Position numbers and translations under genes: made by a program. DNA of 64,000 nt from Sistotremastrum niveocremeum HHB9708 (taxonomy: Eukaryota > Basidiomycota > Agaricomycetes > Sistotremastrales > Sistotremastraceae): contig KV419450.1 of the NCBI GenBank assembly GCA_001630475.1, positions 87,193 through 151,192 on the forward strand, read 5' to 3'. This document shows, piece after piece, positions 19,372 to 50,864 of this stretch (position 1 is the stretch's first letter; each line of letters begins with the position of its first letter). Below the pieces are notes generated by a model. That model did not search any database and was not told where the DNA came from. It worked only from the letters and a program-made list of their open reading frames with translations.

Positions 19372-20512
19372 ATGCCCGCACCTCCCCAAAACCTTCCAGT
19401 GACCCACTGGCACGAGTAAGTATGCCTCTTCTACGCATTCCTGTTCGGTGGAGATTGACTTCACACTGGAATCAAGCATCTACCCAGGAATCGATCCCAC
19501 CATTCATTACAAAAACCAAACATATCAGAACAAAGTTGTACTTGTCACCGGCGCTTCCAGGGGGATTGGAGAAGAAATTGCAACCTTTTATGCCAGAGCG
19601 GGAGCATCTTTGGCTCTCGTAGCTCGTACGACTGACGCACTCAAGCTGGTTCAAGAGAAGATTGTTAAAGAAGTCCCCGGCGCTCGAGTCGAAATATTCA
19701 CTGCCGATGTTTGCGAGTCGAAACAAGTGAAGGATGCTGTGGAGGGTACTGCAGAGAAATTCGGTCGACTGGACATCGTGGTTGCCAACGCCGGCCGAGC
19801 CGATCCTTGGACTATACGTGCGTCTCTTTTCCTCCCATCATCAGTACCGTATCTGACGCCTAGTCAAATGATAGCTTTCATCGAGATGGAAGCTGACACT
19901 TGGTGGAAGACGGTCGAAATCAATCTTCGAGGGGTGTATAACGCAGCTCAGTACGTCGGAATCGCTCCTTGTATGATTATTCCCAATCTTCAGTGCAGTT
20001 TCTCCGTTCCACACCTAAAAAAGACATCAGGCTACTTTGTCATTATATCAGCCGCACTTGCGCAATATATTCGACCTTTCACAAGTCCATATGCCGTGTC
20101 GAAACATGCTTGTGGTCGATTGAATGAGTTCATAGCCCTCGGTACGAAATCGTGCTAAACTTGCGTTCGGTTGCTGAATGTTTGTTCGCAGAGAATCCCG
20201 AGGTCAAAAGCTTCAGCATTCATCCTGGAGCCATCATGACCGCCTTGGTTGATAGCAACCCTCAACTCGCTCACATGGTATCTGAAACGGTTCAACTGCC
20301 AGCCGCAACCCTGCTGAGGCTGACTTCGGGAAGAGAGGACTGGCTTTCGGGCAAGTAAGTGTACCATTCACCCATTTTGTTTACCGGCTCGTTGATCGTA
20401 CCTTCTCAGATTTGTCGACGCACGATGGGATCTTGATGAAGTCGAGAAAGTTTGGAAGGCAAAAATTCTCGAAATTGATGGACTAGTGAACAGATTCTCC
20501 GTTCCTCTATAA
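19372..20512 (+). CDS. Short-chain dehydrogenase/reductase, cluster copy 1
   Basis: Six exons (19372-19415, 19477-19817, 19875-19950, 19999-20141, 20192-20354, 20410-20512) give 289 codons. A leader PPQNLPVTHWHDIYPGIDP precedes the Rossmann domain. The cofactor motif TGASRGIG is at residues 39-46, ADV at 91-93, NAG at 119-121, N145 in INLRGVY, and YAVSK at 185-189. Arg in the glycine motif and in LVAR after strand 2 favours NADP(H), from family knowledge. The position 13 residues before the catalytic Tyr, normally the catalytic Ser, is Ala here (IISAALAQ), whereas the other six cluster copies keep Ser-Ser. Activity may therefore be altered or absent. The C-terminal part (LPAATLLRLTSGREDWLSG, ARWDLDEVEKVW) is shared with the sister genes. 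The substrate is unknown. It is the first of five same-strand copies. Confidence 0.9.
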
Positions 20513-21307
20513 ATCATATCAATCTTGGTTGCCATATTCGATTTGAGATGACGACCTCCGCCCGGGAGTTGTTTGTTGTTATTTGGTTCTCACTGGCATT
20601 CTTCTGCATCTGTGCGTTGTCGGCACGCGACCTGACAGCAACTTGATTGAACAGAGATGGCTTCCGCTTGTTCCACATAAAGATAGATGATTACTCGCAG
20701 TCTTGCCTCTTCAGACTCCGCGCGGATAGCATATTTGTGGATGGCCTTTCCAGCTAATCATTTCCAATTGGCCAATTTCACGGCTGTACATCTGCAGTGT
20801 TACAATGGATGGCTCGTACGAGTATCATTATCTCCGACTCCGCGCGAAATTCTGAAGACGCTAGCTTGGCTTTGCTATGAAACCACAGACTATTCATAGT
20901 GTGACGGCACCGAACTGATTCTCAAATCGATGGTTACCTATTCTGGAAGTTTGCTATTTGCGAGTTTGCTGTGATTCGAACAAGGACTCGATGACGCTGT
21001 CTGTCTTCTCCTGACTCATAGAAGGACATCCATGATGATTGTTATCTCGTTCGCTGAGCTCTGAGCCGTATTTGCCTCGTCTTTGTCAGTCATGGCCTCT
21101 CCAGACCGAGCTTAGCCGTTGTGCCGTCGAAGGAGACGACGCGATACCTTCATGCCGACTTTCACTATAGCCAAAGAAGGAAGAAACATTGTTGACGACT
21201 CATTGATCGAGACTCCCCTGCTTCTCATTGGCTCACGTGCCGAAGACGGTACCGCTAGACTCAAGTCTGACTGTACTTTATTCCCATGATGCTATATGAA
21301 AGACAGA
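20513..21307. other. Intergenic between SDR copies 1 and 2
   Basis: About 0.8 kb without a supported gene. It separates two direct tandem copies and must contain the terminator of the first and the promoter of the second. Confidence 0.4.
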
Positions 21308-21350: not shown

Positions 21351-22471
21351 ATGTCAATCCCACTCGAAGACCTGTCGGTCACTCATCATAATGAGTTCGT
21401 CGTTAATTTGACTTCCTCAAATTCCCATGGTTGACACTTTGACAGCATTTACTCTGCCATCGATCCTGCCATTCACTTTGGACAGCAGACTTACAAAGAC
21501 AAAGTCGTGTTTGTCACTGGCGCATCTCGGGGAATAGGACAAGAAATCGCAACATTTTACGCGAAAGCTGGCGCAACCGTTATTCTAGTGGCCCGTCAAT
21601 CCGCCGCTCTCGACGAAGTCCGGGAAGCCATTCTCAAACTAGTTCCTGGTGCTCAGCTGGCGACTCTTGTTGCCGACGTCACGAGCGTGAAAGAGGTGCA
21701 GACTGCCGTTGACGACGCTGTCCGGAAATTCGGAAAACTTGACATTGTGGTTGCGAACGCTGGAAAAGCCGAGCCGATGGACGAACATCATTGTGAGTCT
21801 TCGCATGAGTTCACAGACATTGTATTAACCGTCAATTAGCCTTAACACAAGAGGACCCGGATGATTGGTGGAGAACAATGGAAGTGAATGTACGCGGTGT
21901 ATACAACGTCGCTCAGTGAGTGCCTCTGTCATCCTGAAGGACCGAGAACGAATGTTTACGTTCATAGCTTCGCGCTTCCCTATCTGGACAAAACCTCGGG
22001 TTACTTCGTCATCATTTCATCATCGGCAGCTCAGATGAGAGCTCCATTTGCGAGCGCGTATTGCATATCCAAGCACGCAGTGGGCAGATTGAACGAATTC
22101 GTTAAAATCGGTATATGATTTGTCGTCTTTTTTACTAGAGCTTCTTAATCATTTCGGATCCAGAACACCCGAATGTCAAGAGTATTGCTTTACATCCTGG
22201 AGGAATATTGACTGCGATGTCAGCCAGAATTCCTCAAGTAGCTGCATACCTGACAGATACCTTGCAATTGCCTGCTGGCACAACTCTTCAGCTGACATCG
22301 GGAAGGTTTGATTGGCTTAATGGCCGGTCAGTGATACTCTCGCTGTGGGAATTAACTTATTTTGATCGTTCTTCCAGATACGTGTCTGCGAACTGGGATC
22401 TGGAAGAGCTTGAGCTGGTCTGGAAAGAGAAGATCATCGCGACCGAAGCCTTGGTCAGTCGGTTCCAGTAG
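21351..22471 (+). CDS. Short-chain dehydrogenase/reductase, cluster copy 2
   Basis: Same six-exon layout as copy 1, starting MSIPLEDLSVTHHN; the first intron is 21395-21445. Motifs are TGASRGIG, VADVTS, VVANAGKAEP, EDPDDWWRTMEVNVRGVYN, YFVIISSSAAQ (catalytic Ser retained) and SAYCISKHAVGRLNEF. The C-terminal block is HPGGILTAMSARIPQ, LQLPAGTTLQLTSGRFDWL and SANWDLEELELVW. It ends SRFQ, a few residues shorter than sisters ending SRLAIP(A/S). It is probably NADP(H)-dependent by the same residues as its paralogues, with unknown substrate. Confidence 0.9.
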
Positions 22472-22944: not shown

Positions 22945-24077
22945 ATGTCTGTCCCTGCTGAAGACCTTCCTGTTACCCATCATCACGAGTACGAATTGAC
23001 TCAATCCTTCTGCCGTTGATCTCTGACCTTTTTCCAGTGTCTATCCCGCGATCGACCCTAGCGCACATTTTCAAAACCAGACTTACAAGGGCAAAGTTGT
23101 CTTGATCACTGGTTCCTCGCGTGGTATCGGTCAGGAGGTTGCCCTATTCTATGCGCGTGCTGGGGCGACTGTTGTACTCGTCGCACGTCAACAGAGCACG
23201 CTTGATGCCGTTCGGGATGTTATAGTCAAGGAAGTCCGGACAGCCACCTTGGCAAGCTTCGTCGCAGACGTCACCAAGACTACGCAAGTTCAGGCAGCGG
23301 TAGAAGGAGCAGTGAAGAAGTTCGGGAAGCTGGACATCGTGTTAGCCAACGCCGGGACGATTAATGAGATGAAGAAACGTGAGTTCATGTGTGCATCTGA
23401 ACTCCGCGGCTAACGATGCTTTATGATTATCAGCATTCACAGAGAACGATCCGGACGAGTGGTGGAACACTATCGAAGTAAATGTTCGTGGCGTATACAA
23501 TGTAGCCCAGTGAGTAGCCACCTCATATCCGTTTTCTCCACCTGATAGTCTATCAGCTACGCTTTGCCGCATCTCGACAAGACTTCCGGATACTTCCTGA
23601 TCACTTCCTCCGTGGCTGCCCAATTCCGATTCCCTAACAGCAGTGCTTACCAATTGTCCAAGCATGCGGTCGGAAGATTGAATGAATTCATCAAGCTAGG
23701 TCAATATCTCACTTCATTTCCCTTTGCTTTCAATTTACCTAATTGTCCCGAATAGAGCATCCCAAAGTCAAAACCATTGCAGTTCACCCCGGCGGCATCA
23801 TGACGAAGTTGGCAGACCTTGTACCCGAGATCCATCAGCTCCTCGTCGATACGTTGCAACTTCCGGCTGCTACCATCCTTCAGCTGACATCTGGAAAATA
23901 CGACTGGTTCTCTGGAAGGTGTGTTCTGTTTGGTCATGACATTGACACACCTGCTAAATTGGATTTCTAAGATTTGTGTCGTCGAACTGGGATTTGGGCG
24001 AGGTAGAAAGCCAGTTCAAGGAGAAAATCCTTGCTGAGGATGCTCTTGTAAGCCGACTGGCTATACCACAAGCTTGA
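22945..24077 (+). CDS. Short-chain dehydrogenase/reductase, cluster copy 3
   Basis: Six exons starting MSVPAEDLPVTHHHDVYPAIDP. Motifs are TGSSRGIGQEVALFYARAGA, VLVARQQ, FVADVTKT, VLANAGT, ENDPDEWWNTIEVNVRGVYN, YFLITSSVAAQ and SAYQLSKHAVGRLNEF. The C-terminal part is EHPKVKTIAVHPGGIMTKLADLVPEI, LQLPAATILQLTSGKYDWFSG, SSNWDLGEVESQF, and it ends SRLAIPQA. It is most similar by eye to copy 4, including the PEIH..LVDTLQLPAAT segment, which suggests the latest duplication in the array. Same predicted NADP(H)-dependent oxidoreductase role, substrate unknown. Confidence 0.9.
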
Positions 24078-24538: not shown

Positions 24539-25680
24539 ATGTCCATCCCTCGTGAAGATCTTCCTGTAACAGAGCGTCATGAGTATGGTCGTTTAATCCC
24601 AATGCATTCCAGGCTTTGATTATATTTTTTCCAGCGTCTACCCTGCAATTGATCCTCAGCCACACTTCGATAATCAGACATATCGAGACAAAGTCGTCTT
24701 GATCACCGGCTCATCGCGAGGCATCGGTCAAGAAATTGCTTTATTTTATGCAAAGTCTGGTGCGATTGTCGTCCTTGTTGCTAGACAGCAGGATACTCTG
24801 GATGAAGTCAAAAATGCTATCGCGAAGGACGTTCCAGCGGCGACCATAGCGACTTTCGTTGCTGACGTGAAGAATACGAAGGAAGTTCAGGCGGCAGTCG
24901 AAGGGGCAGTCGAGAAATTTGGAAAGTTAGACATCGTGTTTGCGAATGCTGGAAAGGGCAATGAATGGAAGAAACGTACGTTCGACTTACTTCAGCTCAG
25001 TCTTTCGGATTGTTGAACGAATCGCAGCGTTCACGGAATGCGACCCGGACGACTGGTGGAGCACCATGGAGGTCAATGTTCGTGGGGTGTATAATGCCGC
25101 CCAGTACGTCTCGTCTGTATGTCTTCCGACATTCCTCACATTTCTCCGTCAGCTACTCTTTGCCACACCTTGACAAAACCGGGGGCTACTTCATCATAAC
25201 TTCCTCTGTCGGAGCACAGATGCGCCGACCTTTTGGAAGCGCGTACGAGCTCTCAAAGCACACCCTCGGCAGATTGAACGAGTTCATCAAGATAGGTATA
25301 GCCATTTAAATCCTTGCTTACGATTCTTAGTGCTAATAACTTTCCTCGCAGAACATCCCCAAGTCAAGAGCATGGCCGTACATCCGGGAGGCATCCTCAC
25401 GAAGTTGGCAGATCTCGTGCCTGAGATACATAAATATCTCGTAGACACCTTACAACTTCCAGCCGCTACGATGCTTCAGCTGACATCTGGAAAATATGAC
25501 TGGTTCTCGGGAAGGTGACGTCCATTCTTCCCATTTCCCCTCTCCGGCGTCACTCACACTTGCGGTTCAAATATAGATTCGTGTCGGCCAACTGGGATTT
25601 GGCAGAAGTCGAAGGAAAGTACAAAGAAAAGATACTCGCAGAAGAAGCTCTTGTCAGTCGACTGGCGATCCCGGCGTAAG
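24539..25680 (+). CDS. Short-chain dehydrogenase/reductase, cluster copy 4
   Basis: Six exons starting MSIPREDLPVTERHDVYPAIDP. Motifs are TGSSRGIGQEIALFYAKSGA, VLVARQQ, FVADVKNT, VFANAGKG, ECDPDDWWSTMEVNVRGVYN, LPHLDKTGGYFIITSSVGAQ and SAYELSKHTLGRLNEF. The C-terminus has VHPGGILTKLADLVPEI, LQLPAATMLQLTSGKYDWFSG, SANWDLAEVEGKYKEK and ends SRLAIPA. All catalytic positions of a classical SDR are present. It is a close sister of copy 3, directly upstream on the same strand. Confidence 0.9.
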
Positions 25681-26121
25681 GAAGCCATTCTATACGTCGA
25701 ATAGAATACATGGAATTTCAGTATAACATGCATCTTCAATGATTCTTCATCAGCCTGCAACATCTTCTGCTCGTCAATGCACAGATTTTGTCCTGAATTT
25801 GGGCTTCTTTGCGCTTGAACGATTTCCCGACGTCCCTGCTTCGATGACGAGATGATTTGTCAGCAACAACCTAGCTTACCGAGCAGGACGCGCCAGCTCT
25901 TTGCCGCATTCGGCACTGATACGGAACGCCATCTTGCTATAACTTTTTCTTGTAATCAACGCTCTGCACGGGGGCCATTTCACAAGAAATGTCATTCAAG
26001 ATTATGTAGATCGGAGACTCTTTCCGCACACACTTGTACATTCGAAGGATCGATTTTGGAGGGTGTCAGAACGGCTATAAAGCGACGGCTCATCTGAGCC
26101 TACCAGCATCGTCGAATTGCC
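25681..26121. other. Intergenic with SDR5 promoter
   Basis: About 440 bp. TATAAAG at 26076-26082 is 46 bp before the start of copy 5. Nothing else was recognised. Confidence 0.45.
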
Positions 26122-27252
26122 ATGTCGGTCCCCTCAGAAGACCTCCCTGTGACTCCTAGACACGAGTACGTTGCTCACTTCTCTATATTCCCTGGTGATT
26201 TCTGAAGACCCTCTTGATTAGCATTTATCCCGGAATCGATCCTACGCCTCACTTCAAAAACCAGACGTACAAGAATAAAATCGTCCTCGTCACCGGTTCC
26301 TCGAGAGGCATCGGAGAAGAGATCGCGGTGTATTACGGTCGGGCAGGAGCAACATTAGCTTTAGTCGCTCGTCAGCAGAGCGCGCTCGATGCAGTTCGAG
26401 AGACCATATTGAAAGAGGTGCCCGGTGCCGTCGTGGAGACCCTCATCGCAGACGTCACCAAAACGACGGACGTGAAGAACGTGGTGGATGAAGCAATTTC
26501 AAAGTTCGGGAGATTGGATATTGTCGTCGCCAATGCGGGCAAGGCAGATCCATGGGATAAACGTGAGTCGTTCAAAGCTGTCCTCATCGTAATCGAACTT
26601 AAATTTAATTCTAGCATTCACGGAGACCGACCCAGATAACTGGTGGAATACTATCGAAGTGAACTTGAGAGGGGTCTATAATATCGCACAGTAAGTTCCC
26701 TTCCCTCAAACTGTCGCCATATCTTTCTCTTACCGAAAATAAGTTATGCTTTGCCGCATCTTGACTTGACCTCCGGCTACTTCATCATCACGTCCTCTAG
26801 AGGCGCTCAAAATCGGCGTCCCAACGCCAGTGCTTATGCTATATCGAAACATGCCGTCGGAAGGCTCAACGAATTTATCAAACTCGGTACGTCAAATCTT
26901 CTTGCGATGATGAATTGTGGCTGAATTGGTATAGAACACCCCAAGGTCAAAACGATGGCTATGCACCCGGGTAGTATCAAGACAGCGATGGCCGTGACGA
27001 ACCCCGGGCTGGCCCATTTCTTGATCGACACGCCTCAGTTGCCCGCGGGCACTATTCTACAGCTTACTTCTGGCAGATACGACTGGTTTTCGGGGAGGTT
27101 CGTGGTATCCTATCGTCCTAAATGCCAATCTCACGGCTCATCTTATCAGATATGTTTCTGCTAATTGGGACTTGGAGGAAGTGGAACGTGATTGGAAGGA
27201 GAAGATCATCGCTTCCGAGGCCTTAGTTAGCCGGCTAGCTATTCCGTCGTAA
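26122..27252 (+). CDS. Short-chain dehydrogenase/reductase, cluster copy 5
   Basis: Six exons starting MSVPSEDLPVTPRHDIYPGIDPTPHFKNQTYKNK. Motifs are TGSSRGIGEEIAVYYGRAGA, LVARQQSALDAV, LIADVTKT, VVANAGKADPWDK, ETDPDNWWNTIEVNLRGVYNIAH, YFIITSSRGAQ and SAYAISKHAVGRLNEF. The C-terminus has HPGSIKTAMAVTNPGLAHFLID, LPAGTILQLTSGRYDWFSG, SANWDLEEVERDWKEK and ends SRLAIPS. The HPGSIKTAM segment is closer to copies 6 and 7 than to 3 and 4, so the lineages on either side of the ABC transporter are related. It is the last gene of the five-gene run before the ABM pair. Confidence 0.9.
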
Positions 27253-27648: not shown

Positions 27649-28157
27649 ATGAGTACCAACCCAGTCAATATTGCCAGTCGCATCATCTCCGTCGCACAAG
27701 TGAGTGCACCTCGTTCGAGGTCCCGTTCTTTCAGTGAACAATGCGAACAAGTGTTCTGACCCCTGAGCTCTCATAACAGGCCGAGGTTTTACCCGGGAAA
27801 GAAACGGAGGTCGTCAAGCACCTTGAAGCGATCCGAGCAGCTGCATTGTCAGAAGCAGAACCAGGTTGCTATACGTATCGCGTTATGCGGTACGGGACGA
27901 GATTTTTGGTCTTTGAAGAGTACGTTCTATCCCTCATACTCAACGATCAAACTGCATGCAACTTCTTATGACTGGTCAGATATGAGAACCTTGAAGCGTT
28001 GAAGCAACACACAGATGGTGCTCCATTCCAGACCTTTGCCTCGGATATATCAAACATGCTCGTAGGGGTGAGTCTGTTCGGATAATATTCAGTTGTATAT
28101 TCGAGACTAGTGTCTATTTAGGGGGAAATCAAATTGAACTTCTACTCCGCGCTTTAA
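27649..28157 (+). CDS. ABM-fold small protein 1 (antibiotic biosynthesis monooxygenase family)
   Basis: Four exons encode about 105 residues: MSTNPVNIASRIISVAQ, then AEVLPGKETEVVKHLEAIRAAA, EAEPGCYTYRVMRYGTRFLVFEE, YENLEALKQHTDGAPFQTF and a tail GEIKLNFYSAL. The pattern (strand, helix, EPGC.TYR, strand, FEEY, helix with H, short C-terminal strand) is that of the dimeric alpha/beta-barrel ABM fold. Members include cofactor-free quinol monooxygenases such as YgiN and anthrone oxygenases; others have no known enzyme activity. Intron positions (after VAQ, inside EEY, before the tail) are the same in all four copies in the window. It lies directly after the SDR array on the same strand. Confidence 0.82.
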
Positions 28158-28693
28158 TTCCCTTATAAATGCACGAGGAGAGTGGGAGCATGTCGCCAAA
28201 GCCTTGACCCACTGTGATGAGAGCAATGATGAGAGCATGATTTCTTGATAGTCGGCAGTGTATGAAACGGAATTTCTTATGATTTTTGTCGAATGAGTCT
28301 CGCCATTTCGATATCTGGGACTCTCCTGCGAATACTTTCTTAAAAAGAATGCGCTATCGACCGAGGCAATCGAGGTTCGAACGTTTGAGAGCGCAGCCGC
28401 CGTATCTCCGTTAACGCCGCACCTTTCTCCTCCGTCCATCCAATCCAGCAGGATGATATTGGATCAACGTCTCTTCCACGAAGCTCTTCAAATACCATAA
28501 ATTTGAGCGCTATGGTCAATGATCGCAGTTAGGCTTGACCCGGAGTCGGCTGCAAGAAGTCCGTCTTATCAACAGATCATCGTGTCAACGCAATCGATCC
28601 CTTGAACGCCCTATAGCACGCTAATCCGGTCCCAAAGCCTTCCAACTTAAGTATCTCGGGCTCTTGACACTTCTCCCTCTGAAATCCTCGAAA
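28158..28693. other. Intergenic between ABM1 and ABM2
   Basis: About 540 bp without a recognised gene. A minus-strand open frame of 110 codons here has no motif and was judged chance. Confidence 0.4.
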
Positions 28694-29167
28694 ATGAGTA
28701 CGGATCCCACAGCGATCAAATCAGGTCGGATCATCCTGGTCGCACAAGTGAGCGTGTACCGATCGATCTGAAAGCCATAATTCTCACAGGAAAATAGGTA
28801 GAAGCATTGCAGGAGAAGGTCACTGCAGTCGCCAGTCATCTGAAAGCAATCCAGGCTAGAGCGCTCTCCCCCGAGGAGCCGGGATGCTATACCTATCGGG
28901 TTGTGCAATATGAGACTAAATTTCTGGTATTCGAGGAGTGAGTAATCTTAAACTGATCACTGGAGTCGTTCTCATCTTGGAGTAGGTATGAGAATGTCGA
29001 GGCATTCAAGCATCACGAAAACGGGGCTCCATTCCAAACGTTCGCCGCAGATTTGTCCAATCTCATCGTCGGTCCTGGGGTAAGCGCAAACAACATTGCA
29101 TCCCATATCGACAATCTAATTCCGACATCAGGCAAACATCGACATAGGTTTCTACAGTGAAATCTGA
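28694..29167 (+). CDS. ABM-fold small protein 2
   Basis: Four exons starting MSTDPTAIKSGRIILVAQ, then VEALQEKVTAVASHLKAIQARAL, EEPGCYTYRVVQYETKFLVFEE, YENVEAFKHHENGAPFQTFAADLSNLIVG and ANIDIGFYSEI. It has the same fold and exon structure as the other three copies. The GAPFQTFA.D.SN segment groups it with ABM1. The usual PGKE after the first strand is changed to QEKV. Its stop codon lies only about 100 bp from the stop codon of the minus-strand ABC transporter, so the two are convergent. The role is inferred as in ABM1; the substrate is unknown. Confidence 0.82.
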
Positions 29168-29269: not shown

Positions 29270-32200
29270 TTAGGCTTCCGACCCTTTTCTGGCTGCCTCC
29301 TCCAGTCTTTGATACATCCCACTCTTCAAACACATATTCCTGAAGATCCCGCCCTCTTTCCTGATCAAGTTATACGGCGTATCGAATTCCGCCATCCGGC
29401 CTTGATCCAAGATGATTAGTCGATCGTAATCAATAATCGTCCATAAGCGATGTGCGACTATCATGCGAGCAAATACCCCATTAGCGGTCGAAGAGACGGA
29501 TGAGACGAAATCCGTACTTGTTATCACCAAAGCACCACGAAACTCTTCGCGGATGGTCACTTGGATCTTCTGATCTGTCTCGAAGTCGATGCTGCTTGTA
29601 GCCTAAAGAAAGATCCATCAGTTATCCCTTAGATAACACAGCATAATGTGACATGCCTCGTCAAGAATTACGATCGAGCTTTGTCGAAGAAGAGCTTTTG
29701 CAAGTGCTACGAGCTGACGCTGTCCTTGAGATAAGTTGGCTCCTCTAGCAGAGATCTTGGTGTCGAGCGTTATGGAGGCGAGAGATTCCGAAGGCTGAGA
29801 GGGCGATAGCATAGCCCTTAATTTATCATCTGGAACGAGAGGCGTCGCACGGGAGCCTGAGTCCGACATTGACGGAATCATATGTACACGGGATAAAACG
29901 TCTAAGTATTCTGCATCCGTAAAGTCGCCTAGAGCCTTGATCAGCACGATCTCAAAAACTGTCATCGATGATGAGCTCGCCGAAAGGATCGAGATTCTCT
30001 CGGACATTCCCCGCAAACAGAACTTGAAGTGGTGTTAGAGCACGAACAGAAAGAACATTATAATCATTGGTTCTCACCGGCATCCTGAGGTATGAAGGTC
30101 TGAGAGAAAGCGTCAGTTGTCGCATTGAGAGGGACACGCATTTTAGTAACGTACAAGCTTGGATCTGAGATCGGACAACCCGATACTCGTTATATCGATT
30201 CCGTCTATTTTAATCGATCCTCGATGAGGATCTACCTGGACTTCTCGTCAGCGATTATTATAAATAGGACTCACGAACGAATCCCCTTACAAATCTCAAC
30301 AAGCTCTTAACCAAAGTTGACTTCCCACTCCCCGTCCTGCCTAATAGCCCTATCCTCTCTCCTGCACGAAGCGCGAATGATACGCCATTGATGACCGAAG
30401 GCAATTCAGGCGCATATCGGATTTCAAGATCTCGAACTTCGAGCATCGGATTCTTCGTCGTCTTCGAAGGCCAATATGCCGGCGGTCTGATGGACTGAAT
30501 GTCAGGAAGCGGGTCTTGAGGTATGTGGAGGTATTCGACGACCCGTTCGACGGCGTTCATGTTAAATTCAAGGTTCATGTATGCTCTGAGAGTCGTCTTA
30601 GCGTGAGGACAAGACACTGGGTTGAATAAGCTTACCGGGAGGCCCAATAGACTGAATGCGTAAAAGTCATAGCTGCGGAAGCATAAGGTTCAGATTGAGG
30701 CCACTGCGTATTGCTACAATCCTCACCGCAAGTAATGGTGATGCCTGCTAAACCCACAGGAACTCCTCCCGCTATTGCCATCAGAGTAGTAACCAATATG
30801 GTCACCGCGCCAAGGCTACGTTTTCCTCAGCATTTCCAAATTACAAAAAAGGAGGCCGTACATATCATAGTTCACGAGGAGCCATCGGTTTCTGCGTCAG
30901 ACGTTAGACATCGCAGTGGGCGTTCAAGAGCATAGGCGTACGCCATCCAACGTGCATAATATAGCTAGGGTCGAGACATCGAACTCAGTTGGCGCAATAA
31001 AGAAATGTGTTTAACGTACTTTACCCCAAGCATCGACCTTCTCAAACATTTCCTCTGAAAATCTCTGTTCGGCAGAGAACGCTCGAACGGTCACAATCCC
31101 ATCCAGCAGCTCCAAAAAACCTTGAAATAGAGGGGACTTGTTCGTCGATTCCATTCTCCTCAGATCGCGTGCTGTATTAAGATAAGAAGTCGCAATCTTA
31201 ACAAAAATACACCCAATGAAGAACGCTGGGACAAGAAAAGGAGGGAATACAACACTGATAGTCACCACGGCTGATACTACCGTAGCCACGTTAGCTAGAA
31301 GTTTGTGGAGAGCTGGAATGATCGATTTGTCGATAGATGTCATGTCGGTTGAAAACCGGGACAATATCCGTCCCGCGGGTGTTGTATCGTGGAATTGTAC
31401 CGTAGCGTTCATGACTGAGGAAAGGAGTTGGGTGAATAGGGCACGTGAAGCGCGGATCCCTCCACGGATTTGGATCACTTTGGATATGAGACTCATCAGT
31501 TCACCGAGGAGTCCTAAAGCGCCATAGATTCCAACGTAAAAGAGGGGATAGCTGGCCGCTGATGGCAGAGAAATCCCGACACGGATGTTGGAGGGTACCC
31601 CTGTCTCCTTGTATGAGTTTTCATGACGCCGCTCATTGTTAGAATTAAGACTTTGAAAGGCGGGACGTTCTCCGGAGGAGTCGTGAAGCCTATACGCCTG
31701 CGAGATGTTAATAAGCGACTGTTATGTAATGAGTGATCAACACGTACATCGCTCCAGGCCTCGATCCAGAACTGAGTCAAAATTTCACAGATCTTTGCAA
31801 GGCAGAGGCAAAGGATCAACCCTACCCACGTCCAATATAATCTACCACTCGTCGATTAAAATCTCCCAAGCTGAAATCATCCACAGGACTTACGCAGCGG
31901 ATACATAAGCCTTGTAAACTCTCCACTCGACCGATCCAGTCTGTTGGACCACTTCTCTGTCTGCCGCCTTTGCTTTGAATCTTGTCCTGTTGGTTTCCGA
32001 CTCTTGCATGATGACCGCTGCATCAAGTGTAGCATCGGATGCAATCCCCAGATCCCTTTGCCCGCCACTCATGCCGCTCATTGCTCCTAGTTCTTCTTCA
32101 ATGCGGTCCCCTTTGTCAGCAGGAATGCTGAACACATTCCCCCCAAGTGCGTTCTTCCCCTCCAACTCCTTCACATATCCCTGATTCTCGATCCTACCCT

Positions 32201-37776: not shown

Positions 37777-38280
37777 TCTCATCACGGCGAAACGAGCTCG
37801 GCACGAACATTGCGAGCCGTTTGATCGGCGTTGAAGGGTCTGATTCCAAATCTTGACAAGAAATAATCGCGCAGCGTTGTCTTTCAAAGTAAACAAATGA
37901 TGAATATAAAGATCGAGTCAACAGTCCAGAGCGCAATTAATGGCTCACACTGATTCGTCTCCGATAATCGAAACTCGAGACTGAGTTTATCGGCATCTTT
38001 CGAGTACGAAGTCCTACGGCCGTGCTATGATTCAGTAGTATGAAGGAACGGCATGCGACGGCCGCAGCGTCAGAGTCGAAGGCGCCGGCGCCGGCCCTGC
38101 GGAATTGAATGTTGGCTGTGTGAGAGATCAGATAAGATGCCTTTGGACAGCCTCAAAGGATGAACGATGATAGTGTGACTTACGCAAGTTGTGCAAATGC
38201 TCGGATCATCCTCAGATCAGTCGTAACGCTGAGCAAGTTGCTCGGCGCCGGGTAGGGTCTGAGGGACAGAGGGACAAATC
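37777..38280. other. Intergenic between ABM3 and ABM4
   Basis: About 500 bp with no gene recognised. It includes a short GCCGGCGCCGGC-type palindrome near 38085. Confidence 0.4.
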
Positions 38281-38328: not shown

Positions 38329-38817
38329 ATGAGCTCTGATCTCGCAAACATCAAGTCTGGACACATCATTGTCGTCGCCGAGGTAAGCAGGACCTCTATC
38401 CCTCGATAGATCATACAGATGAACGGAAATCGATTCGTTAGGGCGAAGCGATTCCGGGAAAAGAGTCTCAAGTCGCCAAACATCTGACGACGATCGCTGC
38501 ACTAGCAAATTCTGATGCTGAACCTGGCGTATTGGTTTATCGAGTTGTTCAATACGAGACGAAGTTCGTCACTTTTGAAGAGTACGTGTTGCTCTCAGGT
38601 CAAGCGATAGCGGGAAGATTTGTTAATGACATGATCCCAGATATGTAGACGCGGCATCAGTTGCAAGTCATCTAGGCAGCAAGGAGTTCGTTGCCTTCCA
38701 GCAGGATTTTGCTAACATTCTCGTCGGCGTGAGTCTTTGATGAATTATTCTGCGAATGGCTATCTGAAGTTGCACTAGGGAGCACCCAAGCTGGGATTCT
38801 ATTCCGAAATCAAGTGA
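38329..38817 (+). CDS. ABM-fold small protein 4
   Basis: Four exons starting MSSDLANIKSGHIIVVAE, then GEAIPGKESQVAKHLTTIAALAN, AEPGVLVYRVVQYETKFVTFEE, YVDAASVASHLGSKEFVAFQQDFANILVG and GAPKLGFYSEIK. The Cys of the EPGC motif present in copies 1-3 is Val here. Exon structure is identical to the sister genes. It is followed about 1 kb downstream by SDR copy 6 on the same strand. Confidence 0.84.
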
Positions 38818-39778: not shown

Positions 39779-40923
39779 ATGCCTGCTCCTCCAGAAGATC
39801 TCCCCGTCACCCTCCATCACGAGTACGTTTCCCATCTTCACAAACCTCCATCCATTGAATTTCGATGTAGCATATACCCCGGTATCGACCCTACGTCTCA
39901 TTTCAAGAATAAAACCTACGCCAGAAAAATCGTCCTCATCACCGGCTCATCACGCGGTATAGGACAAGAAATAGCTTTATTCTACGCTCGATCCGGCGCA
40001 TCTCTAGCTCTTCTCGCCAGGGATCAAGCTTCTCTCGACGTCGTCAAGGAGTTGATTCTTAAGGATGAGGAGGTTGTGAAGGACGGGAGTGTGAGAGTTG
40101 AAGTTTTCGTGGCGGATGTTTGTGATGTGAAGGAGGTTGAGGGCGCTGTGAGAGGTGCTGTTGGGAAGTTTGGGAAGTTGGATATTGTTGTTGCAAATGC
40201 TGGGAAGGCGGATTTATACGATCGACGTACGTCCTTTCACTCGTTTCTTCATTCCGACTCAAGCTCATTGAGACGACAGCTTTCACGGAAGACGATCCGG
40301 AGAAATGGTGGAAGACTGTTGAAGTCAACCTCAGAGGCGTGTACAATATCGCACAGTCAGTCCATCCTCCTCGACTTGCGCGTTCGATCTAATGTATACC
40401 AGCTATTCCCTCCCTTATCTCGATAAGACCTCCGGATATTTTATCATTACATCCTCTCTAGCAGCTCAGGCTCGATTCCCCTTCCTCAGCCCCTACTCCG
40501 TCTCCAAACACGCCGTGGGCCGGTTAAACGAATACATCGCCCTCGGTACGCTCTCTTTTTCTCCACTCCCACTAATCCGATCTAATACGAATACGATGCA
40601 GAACACCCCAAAGTTAAATCCATAGCATTCCACCCCGGCGCGATCAAAACAGCAATAACAGCAACAAATCCCTCAATGGCTCAATATTGCATCGATACAC
40701 TTCAACTTCCCGCTGCGGCGGTTCTGAGATTCACTTCTGGGAAGGCGGATTGGCTTTCTGGGCGGTGAGTCTTCATTTTTCTGATGAGAGGGTGGGATGT
40801 TGATGCGGTGTGATGGGAAGGTATTTTAATGCGAATTGGGATTTTGGGGAGGTTGAGGAGAGGTTTAGGGGGAGGATTGTTGAGGATGGGGGACTTGTTA
40901 GTCGGCTTGCTGTTCTGCTTTGA
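39779..40923 (+). CDS. Short-chain dehydrogenase/reductase, cluster copy 6
   Basis: Six exons starting MPAPPEDLPVTLHHDIYPGIDPTSHFKNKTYARK. Motifs are TGSSRGIGQEIALFYARSGA, LLARDQASLDVV, FVADVCDVKEVEGAV, VVANAGKADLYDR, EDDPEKWWKTVEVNLRGVYNIAH, YFIITSSLAAQ and SPYSVSKHAVGRLNEY. The C-terminus has FHPGAIKTAITATNPSMAQYCID, LQLPAAAVLRFTSGKADWLSG and ends SRLAVLL. Catalytic Asn, Ser, Tyr and Lys are all present. It is a sister of copy 7, with shared DLYDR and the PEKWWKT segment, and is separated from copies 1-5 by the ABM and ABC genes. Confidence 0.9.
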
Positions 40924-41557
40924 GAGGAGTCAGGAAATGATAGTGCATACGGCCCGTATCTGATGTTGATGACGCAGAGTGTTGAATTCGAGATTGTTTG
41001 TTTGTTTATTTCCTTTGGACCCGTTCGGAGAATGATGTAGTCCCTAATCACGAGGTGTAGTGTTCGAACGTTCATCATCAATGATCCTGGAGCGACGTCA
41101 ATTCTCAATTCTTGTTATCTTGGATGACGATGAGGGTTGATTATGGATGACTGCGGATAAGCCCGGACCCTTTTATGTCGAGTCAAGATACCGGATTCGG
41201 CATAATCATCTCACTGTCATCTCTACTGTAGCGCTCACGTTGCTCACGTCAAGGGTCAAGGGTCAAAGCTCGAGGCTCAAAGTTACAATTGAAATGGGAA
41301 TCAAGACTATTGCCGGTGGGTAGAGCCATAAGGGTAGCATAACGGGACTCGGCATTCTGGTACGCGTACGGGTTCGAATTCGAATTCGAAATGGACTTTA
41401 TTAGGCGACGCTCGAGTTTAAAAAGCCTGGACAATGGACATCGATATCGCTCGACTCGAGTTCTCAGGCTGCTAAACTCGGCCGCTGCTGATCTTGCTAT
41501 TCTCGCTGGTGCTACTGCTAGTCGTAGTGCGACTGAAGCGATATCTCACTTGCATCA
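40924..41557. other. Intergenic between SDR copies 6 and 7
   Basis: About 630 bp. Short direct repeats are visible (GTCAAGGGTCAAGGGTCAAAG near 41250, GTTCGAATTCGAATTCGAA near 41371). A TTTAAAAAG at about 41418 is a poor TATA candidate for copy 7. Confidence 0.4.
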
Positions 41558-42906
41558 ATGCCTATCCCACCTGAAGATCTCCCCGTCAAAATCCATCACG
41601 AGTACGCCCCCTCCACCCCCTCCATCCCCCCATTCCTCACTAACATAATCCTACATCATCCAGTATTTATCCCGGCATCGACCCAACACCCCACTTCGAG
41701 CAAAAGACATACACCGGCAAAACAGTCCTAATAGCAGGAGCATCCCGCGGTATCGGAGCGTGTATTGCGAGATTCTATGCGCGGGCTGGAGCTAATCTTG
41801 CCTTGATGGCTCGGTCTGAGGCTTCGCTTTCTACTGTGAAGGAGGATATATTAAAACTTGTGCCTGATGCACGAGTTGGGGTGTTTGAGGGGGATGTGTG
41901 TGATGTTGGGGATGTTGAGAGGGTTGTTAGGGAGGTTGTGGGTGATGGTACTGATGCGGGGTTGGGTAGGAGGTTAGATATTGTCGTTGCTTGTGCTGGG
42001 AAGGTTGATTTATACGATCGACGTACGTCCATCTTTTTCTTTCTCTCGATGAAGCAGATTTTCCAAATGACGAGGTGATGGTAGCATTTACGCAAGATGA
42101 TCCTGAGAAGTGGTGGAAGACAATCGAAGTTAATCTCAGAGGGGTATATAACATCGCTCAGTACGTCCCCCCCTCTCCCATCATCCCCCTTACTCACTTT
42201 ATTAAATTTGGATGAACGAAAGTTTCACGCTCCCGCATCTTGATAAGACAGAGGGATACTTCATAATAACATCCTCAACAGCTGCTCAATGCCGTATACC
42301 TTTGATAAGTCCTTATGCGATATCTAAACATGCTGTTGGTCGTTTGAATGAATATATCCCCATCGGTTCGTCTTCTTCCTCCTCTCCTCCCCCTCCCCTC
42401 TCTCCCTTCTCCTCAACTGACTAATAATTTCAATTTCAATTTCGATTTCGATTTCGATTTCGATTTTGATTTTGATTCTGATTCTGATTTTTATTCTTAT
42501 TCTGATACGCAGAACATCCGAAAGTCAAATCAATAGCATTCCACCCCGGCACGATAAAAACGGCAATGACAGATATGAACCCATCCATCGCGGAATGGTG
42601 TGTTGATAGTGTTGAGTTGGCGGCGGGGTGTTGTTTGAAGTTGACGGGGGGTGGGGCGGATTGGTTATCTGGTCGGTACGTTTTTCTTCTTTCTATTTTT
42701 ATTCCTATTTCCTATTGGTTATTCTCTATTCGTTATTCGTTCGATGTGGATGGTTTGGATTGTGTGAATTTGTAATGTGGGAGATGGCTGATTTGAGGAC
42801 TAGGTTTTATGATGCGACTTGGGATTTTGATGAGGTTGAGGAAAAGTGGAAAGAGAGGATTGTGGAGGATGGGGGGTTGGTTAGTCGGCTTTCTATCCCG
42901 GTCTAA
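41558..42906 (+). CDS. Short-chain dehydrogenase/reductase, cluster copy 7 (divergent)
   Basis: Six exons starting MPIPPEDLPVKIHHDIYPGIDPTPHFEQKTY. The cofactor motif reads AGASRGIGACIARFYARAGA instead of TG.SRGIG. The NAG motif reads VVACAGK, where the Asn conserved in the six sisters is Cys. A nine-residue insertion (DGTDAGLGR) precedes it. The later part is normal: DDPEKWWKTIEVNLRGVYNIAH, YFIITSSTAAQ, SPYAISKHAVGRLNEY, HPGTIKTAMTDMNPS and ATWDFDEVEEKW, ending SRLSIPV. It keeps Ser, Tyr and Lys but has the weakest cofactor-site agreement of the family, so it may be relaxed or neofunctionalised. The intron before EHPKVKS is stretched by a hexamer repeat. Confidence 0.85.
42429..42510. repeat. 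TTTCGA/TTTTGA/TTCTGA hexamer tract in SDR7 intron
   Basis: Tandem hexamers TTTCAA, TTTCGA (several), TTTTGA and GATTCT-like units grade into each other within the intron before the EHPKVK exon. This makes the intron about three times longer than at the same position in sister genes. Confidence 0.75.
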
Positions 42907-44107: not shown

Positions 44108-47100
44108 ATGACTAGAGCGAGTGCGACGCTCGACGTGCTCCCTGGAGCCTTTGTGCTCTTCCTCGGTCTGCTGTATGCACTCTCGTATATCCGCGTGTTA
44201 CGAGAGTGGTCGGCAAAGTTCTACGACCCCTTCAAGCCTTTCATCGTCTTACCAACGTCTGCTCGTCCTCGAAAGAAATATACATTTCGTATTGTACTCC
44301 TGCTCGTCCTCGCCTTCGCGCTTGTCGTCCTTCGCGTCGTCATCCTTGGGTCTGAGGGTGTCAACGTCGTCGGCGTCGTAGCCCTCCTTCCACCTGTTTA
44401 CATCCTCAGCTCCCTCAGCTACTCGCCTCCTTCAACACCTCCATACAAAATCCTCCTTACGCTGATCTTATTCCTCCTCGCTCCCTTCTCCAAGATCTTC
44501 TCCATCATCCACGATTCTATCGTCGGTACACCCATCGACGCATTGTCTGTATGGAAGAATGTAGCAGAGCTCGTCTGCGTGCTGGCTTTGATCGGCGGCA
44601 TATTGGGCATGCCGTTGGCTATTCCAGCGGACGACATCGATCCATCCCAAATCGTACGTCCATCCCCGTTACTTTCCCCCCTCACAAATCTGACTCTTAA
44701 ATCGATGTACAGGGAAAAGAAATCTCGCCGGAGGACTATTCGACTCTCTTTGAGATGATAACTTTCTCATGGATATACCCTCTTATCCGTCTCGTGCGTC
44801 CCTTTCGTCCTCGATGAACACTCATTCTAACTAAGATCCTAGGGATCGACGAAAACGCTCTCGGAAGAAGACGTATGGGCGCTCTCACCCTCTATGCAAT
44901 CCCGTCCTCTCTTTACCAAATTCTCCGCAATCAAGTACGTATCCTTTCTTCTCTCAAGAACACTATAATAGGATGCTGATTGGTGCGTTAGGACGAAGAG
45001 TCTCGTACGACGTATCATACGAGCTAACGCGAGAGATCTGACCTTGGATCTCGTGCTGATGGTCGTCTCTGTCATACTCTCTTACGCGAGTCCTTACTTC
45101 CTCAAACAAATCCTCGACGCTCTCACTCTCCCTCCATCCACATCTTCCCCTTCCTCTCCCTCCTCTTCCTCCTTCCCCGCATTCTCCTCCCCCACCTCCA
45201 CCTCCACGTTCTCGGCCTCGGCTTCCGGATCCGCTGCATCCGTCGACGTCGACGTCGACGCCGAAAGACTAATCCGCGCAACATCAGCAGCCCTCTCCCT
45301 ATTCTTCTTCCAACTCCTCAAATCCCAAGCGGATCTCTTTCACCTGTATCATGGACGAAGAGCGAGTTCGAGGATTAGGAGTGAGCTTATGTGTGCTGTT
45401 TATGAGAAGGCGTTGAGGAGGAGGGATTTTGGAGGTGTTACTGCTACGAGTGCGACCGGAGCGAGCACGAACACGAATGAGAAAGGTTCGACGAACGAGA
45501 AGAAGCCTTCAAAGGACGGGAAGGACGGGACGAAAGAGACGAAAGAGAAGGATAAGAAAGAGAAGGGGAAGAAGCCAAAGGAGACGGGAAAGAAGGAGGA
45601 TCCAAACGCGAAACCGGATAGCGCGGATATAGGCAAGATCGTTCAGCTGATGTCTTCCGACGCGGAGAGATGTGCGAATATGGCGAGTGGGATATATTAT
45701 CTCTACGTACGTCCTCCCTCCCTTCCCCCCGTTCCATCTCCTCAACGTTTTTGTTAATCGTAAAATGTAGGGAGCTCCGGTTGAAATTTTGTTCGCTGTG
45801 ACATTCCTCTACCAGTACGTCCCCCATCCCCTCCCTCCCCTCCCAATCCAACAATCTGACAAACCGACGTAAATAGGCTCCTAGGACTATCCACCTTCGC
45901 AGGTCTCCTCCCTATAATACTCCTCTACCCCTTCTCATCCTATCTCTCCAAACGCGCCGTCCGTCTATCCAAAGAACTTCTCCAAGCTAAGGATCGAAGA
46001 ACTAAGATTCTGAGCGAGGTGGTGGGGGGTGTGAGAGGTTTGAAGTGGTGGGGGTGGGGTGATCCGGGGAGGTGGATTGGGAGACTTATGCGTATGCGGG
46101 AGATTGAGGTTGGGATTATGATTAAAGGTACGGTTCTTCTGAGCTTTCGAGAGAGTTGATGGTTGTCAGCTCTGATGAGATGATTGATTGATTGATTGAT
46201 TGATGATTGATGTAGGACGTGTGAATACGCTGGCGTTGAATTTTATTTGGAGTGTGGGACCTATATGTGTTAATGTGCTGTCATTCGCTTCTTTCGTGCT
46301 TTTGGAGAGGAAGGAATTAAGCGTCTCTGTGGCTTTTACCGTATGTCCCCTCCCCTCTCTCAATTCTACCAATTCCCCAATTTCACAATTTCACAATTTC
46401 ACAATTTCACAACGACTAAAATATGAATGACTGATTATTGTGGGTGGGTAGAGCGTGGCGTTGTTGAATATGCTGAGGTCCCCTTTGAACACGATTCCGC
46501 AGTATATCGTTACTGTGCTTCAGACTAGGGTGTCGGTGGAGAGGATTGCGTGGTTCTTGGATGAGGAGGAGGTTGAGGGGCAATTTTCTGGGCTTGCTTT
46601 GGCGGATTCGACGGATTCGGATTTAGGTATGACTTTTGGTATGACTTTTGGTTCGATGGGTGTGAATTTGACTGATGGTGTGGCTGCTGTGGTAGCTGCT
46701 GCGGATTTGCGAGGGGATGCGAATATCGGAGAGGATGCTGAGGCAGCCTTGCACGAAGACGGAACTCGAGGAGGAAATGGAGATGATCGTGAGGAAATTC
46801 CTCGAGGACCGGGACCGGAATTGGGAATTGTGAATGGGTGGTTTAAATGGAATGAGGTGGACCGGTCAACGGTGGAAGGGAATAAGAACAGCGATGGGAT
46901 TCTGGGGAGGATGAGAGGGGCTTTGAGATCGGTTTGGAAGTGGAGGTCATCTTCGATCTTGCCTACGACGGCTTCGACTTCGACTTCCGCCGCACCTGCT
47001 ATCACTACCTCGGTGCATACTCCCTCTCACCTCGACGCATCGTCAACTACCATCCCAAACGATATCACATCGACCTCTGCTTCGGCTTCTGCAGACGCGA

Positions 47101-50100
47101 GCACGGATGCTGATGCAGAGAATGCCAAGGAGAGGAGGTTTGAGTTGAGAGATATCAATGTTGTGTTTCCTGAAGGGAAGATGACTGTTATCACTGGTCC
47201 TACGGCTTCTGGTAAAACGGCTCTACTCGTACGTTCTCTCTTGTGTTTCGAATCTCGACTCGAAAGTTAATTGAACGACGCAGATGGCTTTGCTCGGCGA
47301 AATGACGACGCTCCCTTCTCCCAATGGTACTCCGACTCAAATCCTGCTCGACAAACAACCCTCAAAGATCCTTCCAAACGGTCTGACCCAATCCCTTTCC
47401 TACGCCTCCCAACAGCCCTACCTCCAACACTTCTCAATCCGCCAAAACATCCTCTTCGGCTCGCCCTACATCGCCTCCCGCTACAACGCCGTCCTACAAT
47501 CCTGCGCACTCCTCGAAGATCTCGCTCTTCTCCCTGAAGGAGATGCTACGATTGTAGGAGCTAGAGGTGTTAAGCTTAGTGGAGGACAGAAAGGGAGGGT
47601 GGGGCTTGCGAGAGCTGTTTATGCGCTTAGTCAATGGGTGCTTTTGGATGATCCGTTGAGTGCTGTTGATGCGGGTGTTGCGAGGGGGCTTTATGAGGAT
47701 GTTTTGAGGGGTCCGCTTTTGAGTGGTCGGACTGTGGTATGTATCATTCTTTCTTGTTCTTTCTTGATTGGAATTGATGGTTCTGGTTGGGGTAGGTGTT
47801 GGTGACGCATCATGTGGAACTTGTGCTCCCCGGCACAGATTATTTGGTGAGGATGAAAGAGGGGAGAATCGAGTATCAAGGTGCGGTGGAGGAGTTAAGG
47901 GAAAGAGGTGTATTGGAGGGGATATTGAAAGAGGAGAATGTGGTTTTGGGAGATGATTTGATTGATGATGCGGCTGATGAAGATGCGGATGCTGATGCGA
48001 CGGTAAAAGCTGGGACGAGTGAGGAGGATACAGAGGTTGAGAGTGTAGCTGGCGCTGCACCGGGAAAAGATAAAGGGAAGGCATCGACGTCTTCTGTGCT
48101 TAAGCCTGCGGTGGAGGTGGATGCGAAAACGACGAAGGCGAAGACGAAAGTGAAGACTGCGGATGAAGAAGAAGTGCGACAGACGGGATCGGTCAAGTGG
48201 AGAGTTTACAAAGCTTATTTGGTCGCATCGTAAATCTATTCAAATTCTCCGAAGCTGAATCGGGAACTGATGGTTGATGATGGCGAATGTAGATCGTATT
48301 GGACGTGGGCTGGCTTGATCCTCTTCCTCTGCTTTGCGAGGGCGTTTGAGATTTCTGATCGGTTTTGGATCAAGGCTTGGGGTGATGTAAGTTTCTTATT
48401 CGTCGGGAACGAATATATTCTGATATTATTCCAGGCTTATCGGACATCCGATTCCTTCATCGGACGACCGTCTCTTGTTGTTCCATACTCCCTCGATCAA
48501 CACCCTCTCGCAAATTCATACGCAGCAGCATTCGTACCCTACAACACACTCCTCGGCATCCCTCTTCCCTCAGCGAACGATCATCCTCTTTTCTACGTCG
48601 GTATCTACGGAGCCCTAGGACTCCTCGGAGCACTCATGAGTCTAATATCCCGCGCAATCCAATTCACAGGAGCGATCCGCGCCGCCCGAATCCTTTTCTC
48701 CCAACTCCTCAATTCAGTCATAAACGCAACGCTGCGCTGGCACGATACAACTCCCACAGGCCGCATATTGTCTCGCTTCTCGAAAGATATTACAACGATC
48801 GACAGTTCGATCGCTCCGTCTCTTCAATCGTTCTTGGCATCTGTAGCGACGTTCATAGCTGCCGTAGTGACAGTTAGTACGGTCTTCCCTCCCTTCCTCG
48901 TTCCGGCGTTCTTCATCGGGTGGCTTTATGTGAAGATTGCCATGGGATATATAAACACCGGACGTGATTTGAGGAGGATGGAGTCGACGAATCGATCGCC
49001 TATATTCCAGGGCTTTTCGGAGCTTTTGGATGGGATTGTCACTGTTCGAGCGTTCTCTGCTGAACGGAGGTTCTTGGATGATTTGTTTGAGAAAATTGAT
49101 GTTACTGCTAATGTAAGTCTCACTGTCTCTTTAGGCATTCAAAGCGGAAGGAGCTTATTCATCGTTGTAGATGTTCTATACGTTCTGGATGACGTGCGCC
49201 TGTGCGTTTATTCGGTGAGATAATGGCTGACTTTTTGAGCTAGGAATCGGTGGCTTCTTGTCTATTACGATATGTGAGTTCGTTGACTTCCGATGCTTCT
49301 GCGTGACTGAGATCGATGCAGTCTTGGTGCGGCATCTGTGCTTGTCACCGCTTTGATGGCCATCGCAGGCGGTGTTCCAGTCGGTCTCGCCGGTGTCACT
49401 ATAACTTGCGGTAAGGAATCCAACGATGCGCTATGCATTCCGATGCTTAACAGCATCTATTCGTAGCTATGAGTTTCACAACTTCGGTGTATTGGGCTTG
49501 TCGGTATGCATATTCGACTTATTACTTATTACGTCATACTGATTATCCAACGTAGGTATTCAACTCGCGTCGAATTGGACTTGAACGCCGTCGAACGCAT
49601 TGTCGAATACCTTGACATTCCGCAAGAACCGCCCGCTATCATTGAATCGAACCGACCGCCGGCATATTGGCCCTCGAAAACGACGAAGAATCCAATGCTC
49701 GAAGTTCGAGATCTGGAGATCCGATATGCGCCTGAGTTACCTTCGGTTCTTAATGGGATATCGTTCGCGCTTCGCGCGGGAGAGAGGATCGGGTTGTTGG
49801 GCAGGACGGGGAGTGGGAAGTCCACTTTGACGATGAGCTTGTTGAGATTTGTAGGTCGATCCTTTCGTGCGTTTGATTCGGTTGCTGATGTGGAGTCCAG
49901 GTTGATCCGCATAAAGGATCTATCATCATGGATGGGATTGATATTACGAGTATTGGGTTGTCCGATCTAAGATCCAAGCTTGTAAGTTGTGGAGACACGT
50001 GGCTCTCTGATCTCAACTTGATAACTGACGATTTCGCTCAGACCTTCATACCTCAGGATGCAAGTAAGTAGCATATACTTCAGCGTCGTGATCATGCTCT

Positions 50101-50864
50101 GATACCGCTTTCAGGTCTATTCGCGGGGACGATCCGAGAGAATCTTGATCCGTTCGGTGAGCTCGCTATCGATTATACTTCCGAACCTGTGCTGATGAAC
50201 TCTCTAGGTGACTTCACCGATGCGGAGTGTTTAGATGTATTGTCCCGTGTCCATATGATCCCTCCGACATCGCACTCAACGCCCTCTGCGACACCCCTCA
50301 TTCCGACCACCGAAGCGAGCGAAGCACCAGCGCCGTCCAAGCCTGCAGATTCCCTTGCCTCGATAACGCTCGACACGAAGATCTCAACGGGAGGAATCAA
50401 CTTCTCTCAAGGCCAACGTCAGCTCTTAGCTCTCGCGAGAGCTCTTCTTCGACAAAGCTCGATCGTGATTCTTGATGAGGTATGTCGAATTACGTCATTA
50501 TGCAACTCCGCAATCGCTGACGGTATATCGTAGGCTACGAGCAGTATTGATTTCGAGACGGATCAGAAGATACAAGCGTCCATCCGCGAAGAGTTTTCTG
50601 GTGCTTTGTTGATAACAGGTTCGTTCATCTTCTCCATGTTCTCCGCAAGGCGCTGACGCGTCCCCTGCTATGATAGTTGCGCATCGTCTATGGACGATCA
50701 TCGACTACGATCGGCTTATCATCCTGGATAAAGGCCGCGTGTCTGAATTCGACACGCCGTATAACTTGATCAGGAAGGAGGGCGGGATCTTCAGGAATAT
50801 GTGTTTGAGGAGCGGGATGTATGATAGACTTGAAGAAGCGGCGAAAAAGAATGTTGAAGCGTAA
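44108..50864 (+). CDS. ABCC-type (MRP) full-length ABC transporter B
   Basis: Paralogue of the transporter at 29270-35753, with the same domain and exon order. The N-terminal helices (DVLPGAFVLFLGLLYAL, FRIVLLLVLAFALVVLRVV) form a TMD0-like part. TMD1 includes ASPYFLKQILDAL and RGLKWWGWGDPGRW. NBD1 has GPTASGKTALL, LSGGQKGRVGLARAV and WVLLDDPLSAVDA. TMD2 has HDTTPTGRILSRFSKD and MESTNRSPIFQGF. NBD2 has GRTGSGKSTLTMSL, the altered signature FSQGQRQLLALARAL, SIVILDEA and VAHRLWTIIDYDR. A Lys/Glu/Thr-rich insert of about 60 residues in TMD1 (45430-45620) is much shorter in paralogue A. A long Ala/Ser/Asp-rich linker joins NBD1 and TMD2. Probable export pump for conjugates or amphipathic anions. 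It appears intact. It is downstream of and co-oriented with SDR copies 6 and 7. Confidence 0.88.
46181..46210. repeat. GATT microsatellite in intron of ABC transporter B
   Basis: About seven tandem GATT units lie near the 3' end of an intron, just upstream of the acceptor before the GRVNTLALNFIW exon. Confidence 0.8.
46379..46418. repeat. AATTTCAC octamer repeat in intron of ABC transporter B
   Basis: Five perfect tandem copies of AATTTCAC lie in the intron that follows the SVAFT exon. Confidence 0.85.

Follow-up and report, generated by a model that had tools for sequence, protein, structure and literature searches.

Fungal secondary-metabolite clusters are the described systems that come closest to the locus considered here, in that they too bring together linked oxidoreductases, an ABM-type protein and an ABC exporter. 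Pumps of the ABCC5 group are often associated with such clusters (PMC4692070, in excerpt). According to excerpted descriptions, the ABM-type protein Abm (MGG_04777) from Pyricularia oryzae has a small molecule as its substrate and is encoded in a gene cluster, and a fungal Abm protein turns jasmonic acid into 12OH-JA (PMC7698770, in excerpt). LsrG-like ABM proteins (PDB 2gff, 3qmq) and PA3566 (1x7v) offer structural points of reference, as do the MRP/YCF1-type ABCC transporters for pumps, and trihydroxynaphthalene reductase (1doh) and versicolorin reductase (7yb1) for SDRs.

The locus lies in a 64,000-nt stretch of DNA (the window; positions 87193-151192 of contig C57) from a genome of 34.7 Mb in 111 contigs. 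Between 19372, the start of SDR1, and 50864, the stop of pump B, it holds 13 genes in which three families were recognised: seven SDRs, four ABM-domain proteins and two full-length ABCC pumps. All of these parts are of known kinds; the variant is their arrangement as three families with no synthase found. In contrast to fungal secondary-metabolite clusters, no backbone-synthase match was found among the candidates scored, the families number three, and the pumps are assigned at the level of the ABCC family. The likeness to the Pyricularia Abm is one of description, and whereas that protein is secreted and its gene stands beside a polyketide synthase gene (again from excerpted descriptions), the ABM genes here stand beside SDRs. 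LsrG-like proteins and PA3566 are matched by profile, but so distantly that their substrates are not transferable. The pumps resemble MRP/YCF1-type transporters in being full-length, two-half ABC exporters; with linkers trimmed, pump B matches the solved chains of ABCC2 at about 1e-190 and of YCF1 at about 1e-186. Trihydroxynaphthalene reductase (E 4.6e-20) and versicolorin reductase (E 1.5e-18) share the SDR fold family and motifs but are not nearest to the cluster SDR compared, SDR3, whose best solved match is (3R)-hydroxyacyl-CoA dehydrogenase (2et6, E 3.6e-27), and all three matches are informative at family level only. No description of the SDR/ABM/ABCC combination was found in the open-licence PMC literature, among the matches listed (titles, term counts and abstract beginnings).

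Gene content and gene models

From left to right, the order is SDR1-5, ABM1-2, pump A, ABM3-4, SDR6-7 and pump B (Table 1). The models are predictions from DNA, obtained with a home-made gene finder followed by spliced protein-to-DNA alignment, and the ends given for the SDR and ABM models leave out the last residues and the stop. All 13 predicted models read open. Intron layout is common within each family, with six exons at matching positions in seven of seven SDRs and four exons in four of four ABM genes. The first-pass annotation, made by reading the letters, had proposed this composition and order, with the two pumps in opposite orientation; spliced alignment bears it out, pump A lying on the minus strand and pump B on the plus strand.

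Table 1. Predicted genes of the cluster and upstream CCG-N4-CGG sites (window coordinates)
Feature	Position	Strand	Exons	Remarks
SDR1	19372..20506	+	6	TGASRGIG, NAG, YxxxK
SDR2	21351..22462	+	6	
SDR3	22945..24068	+	6	PF00106 E 2.4e-41
SDR4	24539..25676	+	6	78% identical to SDR3
SDR5	26122..27249	+	6	
ABM1	27649..28148	+	4	PF03992
ABM2	28694..29161	+	4	PF03992
ABCC pump A	29270..35753	-	23	1710 aa, open
ABM3	37247..37767	+	4	PF03992
ABM4	38329..38808	+	4	PF03992
SDR6	39779..40914	+	6	sister of SDR7
SDR7	41558..42900	+	6	AGASRGIG and CAG replace TGxSRGIG and NAG; YxxxK kept
ABCC pump B	44108..50864	+	21	1850 aa
CCGAAGACGG	21240..21249	+		111 bp upstream of SDR2
CCGCATTCGG	25904..25913	+		218 bp upstream of SDR5
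CCGGAGTCGG	28540..28549	+		154 bp upstream of ABM2
CCGAATCCGG	37115..37124	+		132 bp upstream of ABM3
CCGGCGCCGG	38085..38094	+		244 bp upstream of ABM4
CCGGATTCGG	41191..41200	+		367 bp upstream of SDR7

The classical SDR motifs (TGxxxGIG, NAG and S..YxxxK) are found in full in six of the seven SDRs. These six retain TGxSRGIG and NAG, SDR7 being the exception, while S..YxxxK and the RGIG cofactor loop are retained in all seven. The Pfam scan covered SDR3, one of the seven. An arginine in TGxSRGIG points to NADP(H) in SDRs, and its presence suggests that the cluster SDRs use this cofactor. Eight more SDRs of the same subfamily were modelled elsewhere in the genome, on contigs C1, C19, C30, C32 (two) and C71 (three), and weaker SDR matches, outside the modelled set, lie on C5, C12, C29 and C31. 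One of the two copies on C32 (SDR_C32b, L040:5643-6861, G000:C32) has an open reading frame but has lost NAG and YxxxK, and is likely a non-catalytic or decaying relative.

All four cluster ABM proteins score above the PF03992 cut-off (37.6 to 52.2 bits against 23.1; E 2.4e-9 to 7.2e-14), and four more were found elsewhere, three on C6 and one on C52. A profile built from seven of these eight ABMs aligns along most of its domain with 1x7v (E 2.7e-7), 2gff (8.8e-4) and 3qmq (0.0028); the structures that it reaches are proteins of unknown function and LsrG. Cofactor-free oxygenase activity in the cluster ABMs is putative, given their distance from characterised members.

Walker A, signature and Walker B motifs, read by eye, are present in both halves of both pumps, as in a full-length ABCC protein; the transmembrane halves are presumed from the likeness of pump B to ABCC2 and YCF1, and the export function is a prediction from sequence. 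Pumps A and B are 63% identical across 1687 aligned residues. The possibility that pump A is a pseudogene was rejected: the stop and odd insertion in a first alignment arose because introns had been missed, among them one of 183 nt (33689-33507) and one of GC-AG type (29656-29603), and the final model is open. The GC-AG intron sits where pump B has an ordinary intron. Related pumps are encoded on C5 and C12, and a more distant one on C46 has two stops in its alignment.

Linkage and search for a synthase

An SDR, an ABM and a pump locus fell within 31.5 kb in only 120 of 400,000 uniform random placements, in a test that counted tandem arrays as single loci (seven SDR, four ABM and four pump loci in 34.7 Mb) and for which the families were chosen post hoc, after the cluster had been seen. 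The linkage of the three families, as noted in the first-pass annotation, is beyond random placement.

That annotation had also described the cluster as lacking a backbone synthase, and the Pfam search of the genome agrees. On C57 it gave no match to the ketosynthase domain PF00109 (5/5 candidates scored), to terpene synthase PF19086 (32/32) or to AMP-binding PF00501 (15/61), so a backbone synthase of the kind that marks a biosynthetic gene cluster was not found, with AMP-binding candidates partly scored. Neither a P450 match (92/301 candidates scored) nor a Zn(II)2Cys6 regulator domain (71/71) was found on the contig. Terpene-synthase matches across the genome amount to 30 rows at about 19 loci, none of them on C57. 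Ketosynthase gave a single match in 34.7 Mb, which is below expectation even for fatty-acid synthase; introns may have hampered the search.

Divergence and duplication history

Identity among the cluster copies is 54-78% for SDRs and 47-64% for ABMs, and dS was beyond estimation in eight of 11 pairs. The estimable values are 1.76 for SDR6/7, 2.73 for ABM1/3 and 0.49 for SDR_C1/SDR_C19; the last two genes, both outside the cluster, form the closest pair among the 15 modelled SDRs (95% identity). Five of the SDR pairs include a cluster gene; their dN is 0.14-0.29, and their dS is 1.76 in one pair and beyond estimation in the other four. The cluster copies are old and under amino-acid constraint, which fits diversification, and their age is therefore evidence against the dosage selection that the first-pass annotation had suggested.

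In the SDR tree, SDR6 and SDR7 are sisters (100/99), as are SDR3 and SDR4 (97/98); SDR2-5 and the C30 copy form a group at 91/91, below the starred level, and SDR1 is unplaced. In the ABM tree, ABM3 and ABM4 group with a copy at C6:703k (91/92), while ABM1, ABM2 and the C52 copy lie outside this group and are mutually closest, at 63-64% identity and with their branching unsettled. Held as one clade, ABM1-4 gave p-AU 0.0065, SDR1-7 0.0116 and SDR1-5 0.0337; the groups were defined by position with earlier trees already seen, and SDR_C32b, which sits on a long branch, was excluded from the SDR tests. A single within-cluster expansion is thereby rejected for ABM1-4 and for SDR1-7. Pumps A and B are sisters (100/100), the branch to A being four times as long as that to B (0.57 against 0.14) in a tree that includes two distant pumps with long branches.

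Repeated co-duplication of oxidoreductase, ABM protein and exporter had been proposed for this locus; although the pumps are sisters, the family trees reject SDR1-7 and ABM1-4 as clades and are therefore evidence against it. As for duplication nodes shared by the three family trees, one A/B split is compatible with them, but neither SDR1-7 nor ABM1-4 is a clade. It is possible that a single ancestral block split into A and B, followed by separate tandem duplications and the escape of single copies to other contigs, a history that would fit all three families. Duplication of an inverted block was considered and rejected; the pumps are inverted, yet a simple inversion does not fit because all SDR and ABM genes are on the plus strand.

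A candidate upstream element

The dyad CCG-N4-CGG occurs within 400 bp upstream of six of the 13 cluster genes (Table 1). Shuffling gave 0.81 on average and never as many as six in 4000 trials. This dyad is the best of 63 CGG dyads tested; the runner-up, CGG-N3-CGG, occurs in five of 13 against 1.7. CCG-N4-CGG is absent from the 400 bp upstream of both pumps, SDR1, SDR3, SDR4, SDR6 and ABM1. The whole window contains 12 sites, with 12.2 predicted from base composition; there is no overall excess, so that half of the sites stand in 8% of the window. In 13 other stretches of the genome, 22 sites were counted in 117,081 bases, which gives about one expected per 13 x 400 bp. Outside the cluster, the dyad was found within 500 bp of four of 12 SDR and ABM relatives (C30, C32a, C6:703k and one of the pair at C6:795-797k), with about 1.1 expected; the tally covers SDRs and ABMs, the two pump relatives being excluded as the start codon was not located. 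A narrower pattern, CCGVAKTCGG, defined after the sites had been seen, is common genome-wide: it was matched 463 times and its reversed form 237 times, each palindromic site being counted twice. These counts are suggestive of CCG-N4-CGG as a candidate promoter element common to some of the SDR and ABM genes.

Upstream of the cluster genes, exact 6-8-base words did no better than in random sets, and Yap1, HSE, STRE and CCAAT words showed no clear enrichment there. A TATA-like word is present in nine of the 13 upstream 400-bp stretches, compared with a fraction of 0.21 of random window stretches, a weak signal, and a loose CGG-N0-11-CCG pattern in 11 of 13 against 0.51, likewise a weak observation.

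Possible function

The class II peroxidase extension domain gave 24 rows at about 16 loci genome-wide, which makes contact with lignin aromatics probable for this fungus; judged by this gene content, it is probably a white-rot, lignin-degrading basidiomycete. To our knowledge, the intracellular handling of lignin aromatic debris in white-rot fungi is poorly mapped. The reading preferred here, which is held tentatively and as a possibility of some weight, is of an old, diversified cluster that processes compounds from outside, in a detoxifying or catabolic role. It starts from the gene content, linkage and age described above, and each enzymatic step is a proposal. With NADPH as the reductant, the SDRs would reduce a range of differently shaped aromatic aldehydes, ketones or quinones, and the phenols or quinols so formed would be hydroxylated or oxidised by the ABM proteins in a cofactor-free reaction with O2. 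The MRP-type pumps would carry the products, or conjugates that arise elsewhere, to the vacuole or the cell exterior. The many SDR copies would represent substrate breadth, not dosage.

This processing role is consistent with the open models, the YxxxK and RGIG motifs kept in all seven SDRs, the linkage, the search for ketosynthase, terpene-synthase, AMP-binding and P450 domains that found none on C57 among the candidates scored, the old and constrained copies, the CCG-N4-CGG sites and the peroxidase loci. Against it stand the seven genes, both pumps among them, that lack the dyad, the genome-wide frequency of its narrower form, and the lack of a P450 match on the contig (92/301 candidates scored). 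It also counts against this role that SDRs and ABMs from these subfamilies are found apart from one another elsewhere in the genome, so that neither depends on the cluster. In the white-rot fungus Dichomitus squalens, the genes raised by vanillin and cinnamic acid include NADP-dependent oxidoreductases or SDRs (PMC6763618, in excerpt); this and the conversion of jasmonic acid by a fungal Abm are precedents in favour of the processing role. Phlebiopsis gigantea on wood extractives raises P450, GST and ABC genes (PMC8206109, in excerpt), which counts against that role here.

The SDR array, the ABM array and the pump pair might instead be neutral neighbours, products of ordinary tandem duplication with no common function. 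Tandem duplication is evident in SDR3/4 and SDR6/7, the pumps are without the dyad, and SDRs and ABMs also occur apart on other contigs. Random placement, however, rarely joins the three families, old copies whose dS is mostly beyond estimation are still adjacent, and some SDRs and ABMs have an upstream element in common. Neutral adjacency is considered unlikely, if worth serious attention.

It is also conceivable, at a level that we would call improbable, that the pathway is split, with a scaffold, most plausibly a terpene, made elsewhere and then completed at this locus by the SDRs and ABM oxygenases before export. This explanation stays because the genome has some 19 terpene-synthase loci, and three SDRs adjoin terpene synthases in a cluster of Hypholoma fasciculare (PMC8181146, in excerpt). 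The contig itself offers no backbone match (AMP-binding partly scored), and the genome as a whole one ketosynthase match. Terpene tailoring with many SDRs and no P450 is unusual, and it is seven SDRs that are found here with no P450 match on the contig (partly scored). Dosage amplification of one detoxification step is very improbable: each family is indeed present in several or many copies, but these have diverged as far as the identities and dS values above indicate, and the most similar of the 15 modelled SDRs lie outside the cluster.

If the processing role is extended, the locus would be a reduce-oxidise-export cluster with no backbone gene, one that stayed together as its copies diversified. 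Its SDR and ABM genes, with some at dispersed loci, would be under one regulator through CCG-N4-CGG, as a catabolic or detoxification regulon of a lignin degrader, similar in look to a natural-product cluster but consuming its compound instead of making it; this wider proposal is doubtful. As a compact group of three families in which a candidate control site but no synthase was found, the locus is a defined and testable gene set, and it would suggest that gene clustering in basidiomycetes reaches beyond metabolite production. Should it be a chance array, it would be an instructive false lead for cluster-finding programs.

Neighbouring genes and dispersed relatives

The flanks of the cluster hold a 4HBT thioesterase, an intact or remnant gene for cytochrome b5 plus FMN-dehydrogenase, and a repeated pair. 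The second of these (5455-6854) may be broken or mis-modelled, because its FMN-dehydrogenase match falls in two stretches and covers part of the profile only. The repeated pair (51332-54561) consists of stretches that are 76-87% alike and is probably two minus-strand genes; one exon matches DUF6533 weakly, short of the cut-off.

Among the dispersed relatives, the ABM gene on C52 and a flavin amine-oxidase-like gene are arranged tail to tail (L045:1720-5126, G000:C52). On C30 (L037:108-7141), an SDR of the same subfamily as those of the cluster shares its strand with an ABCC pump about 1.3 kb away; this pump belongs to another subfamily and is 42% identical to the one on C5, and the two genes make a second SDR-ABCC neighbourhood.
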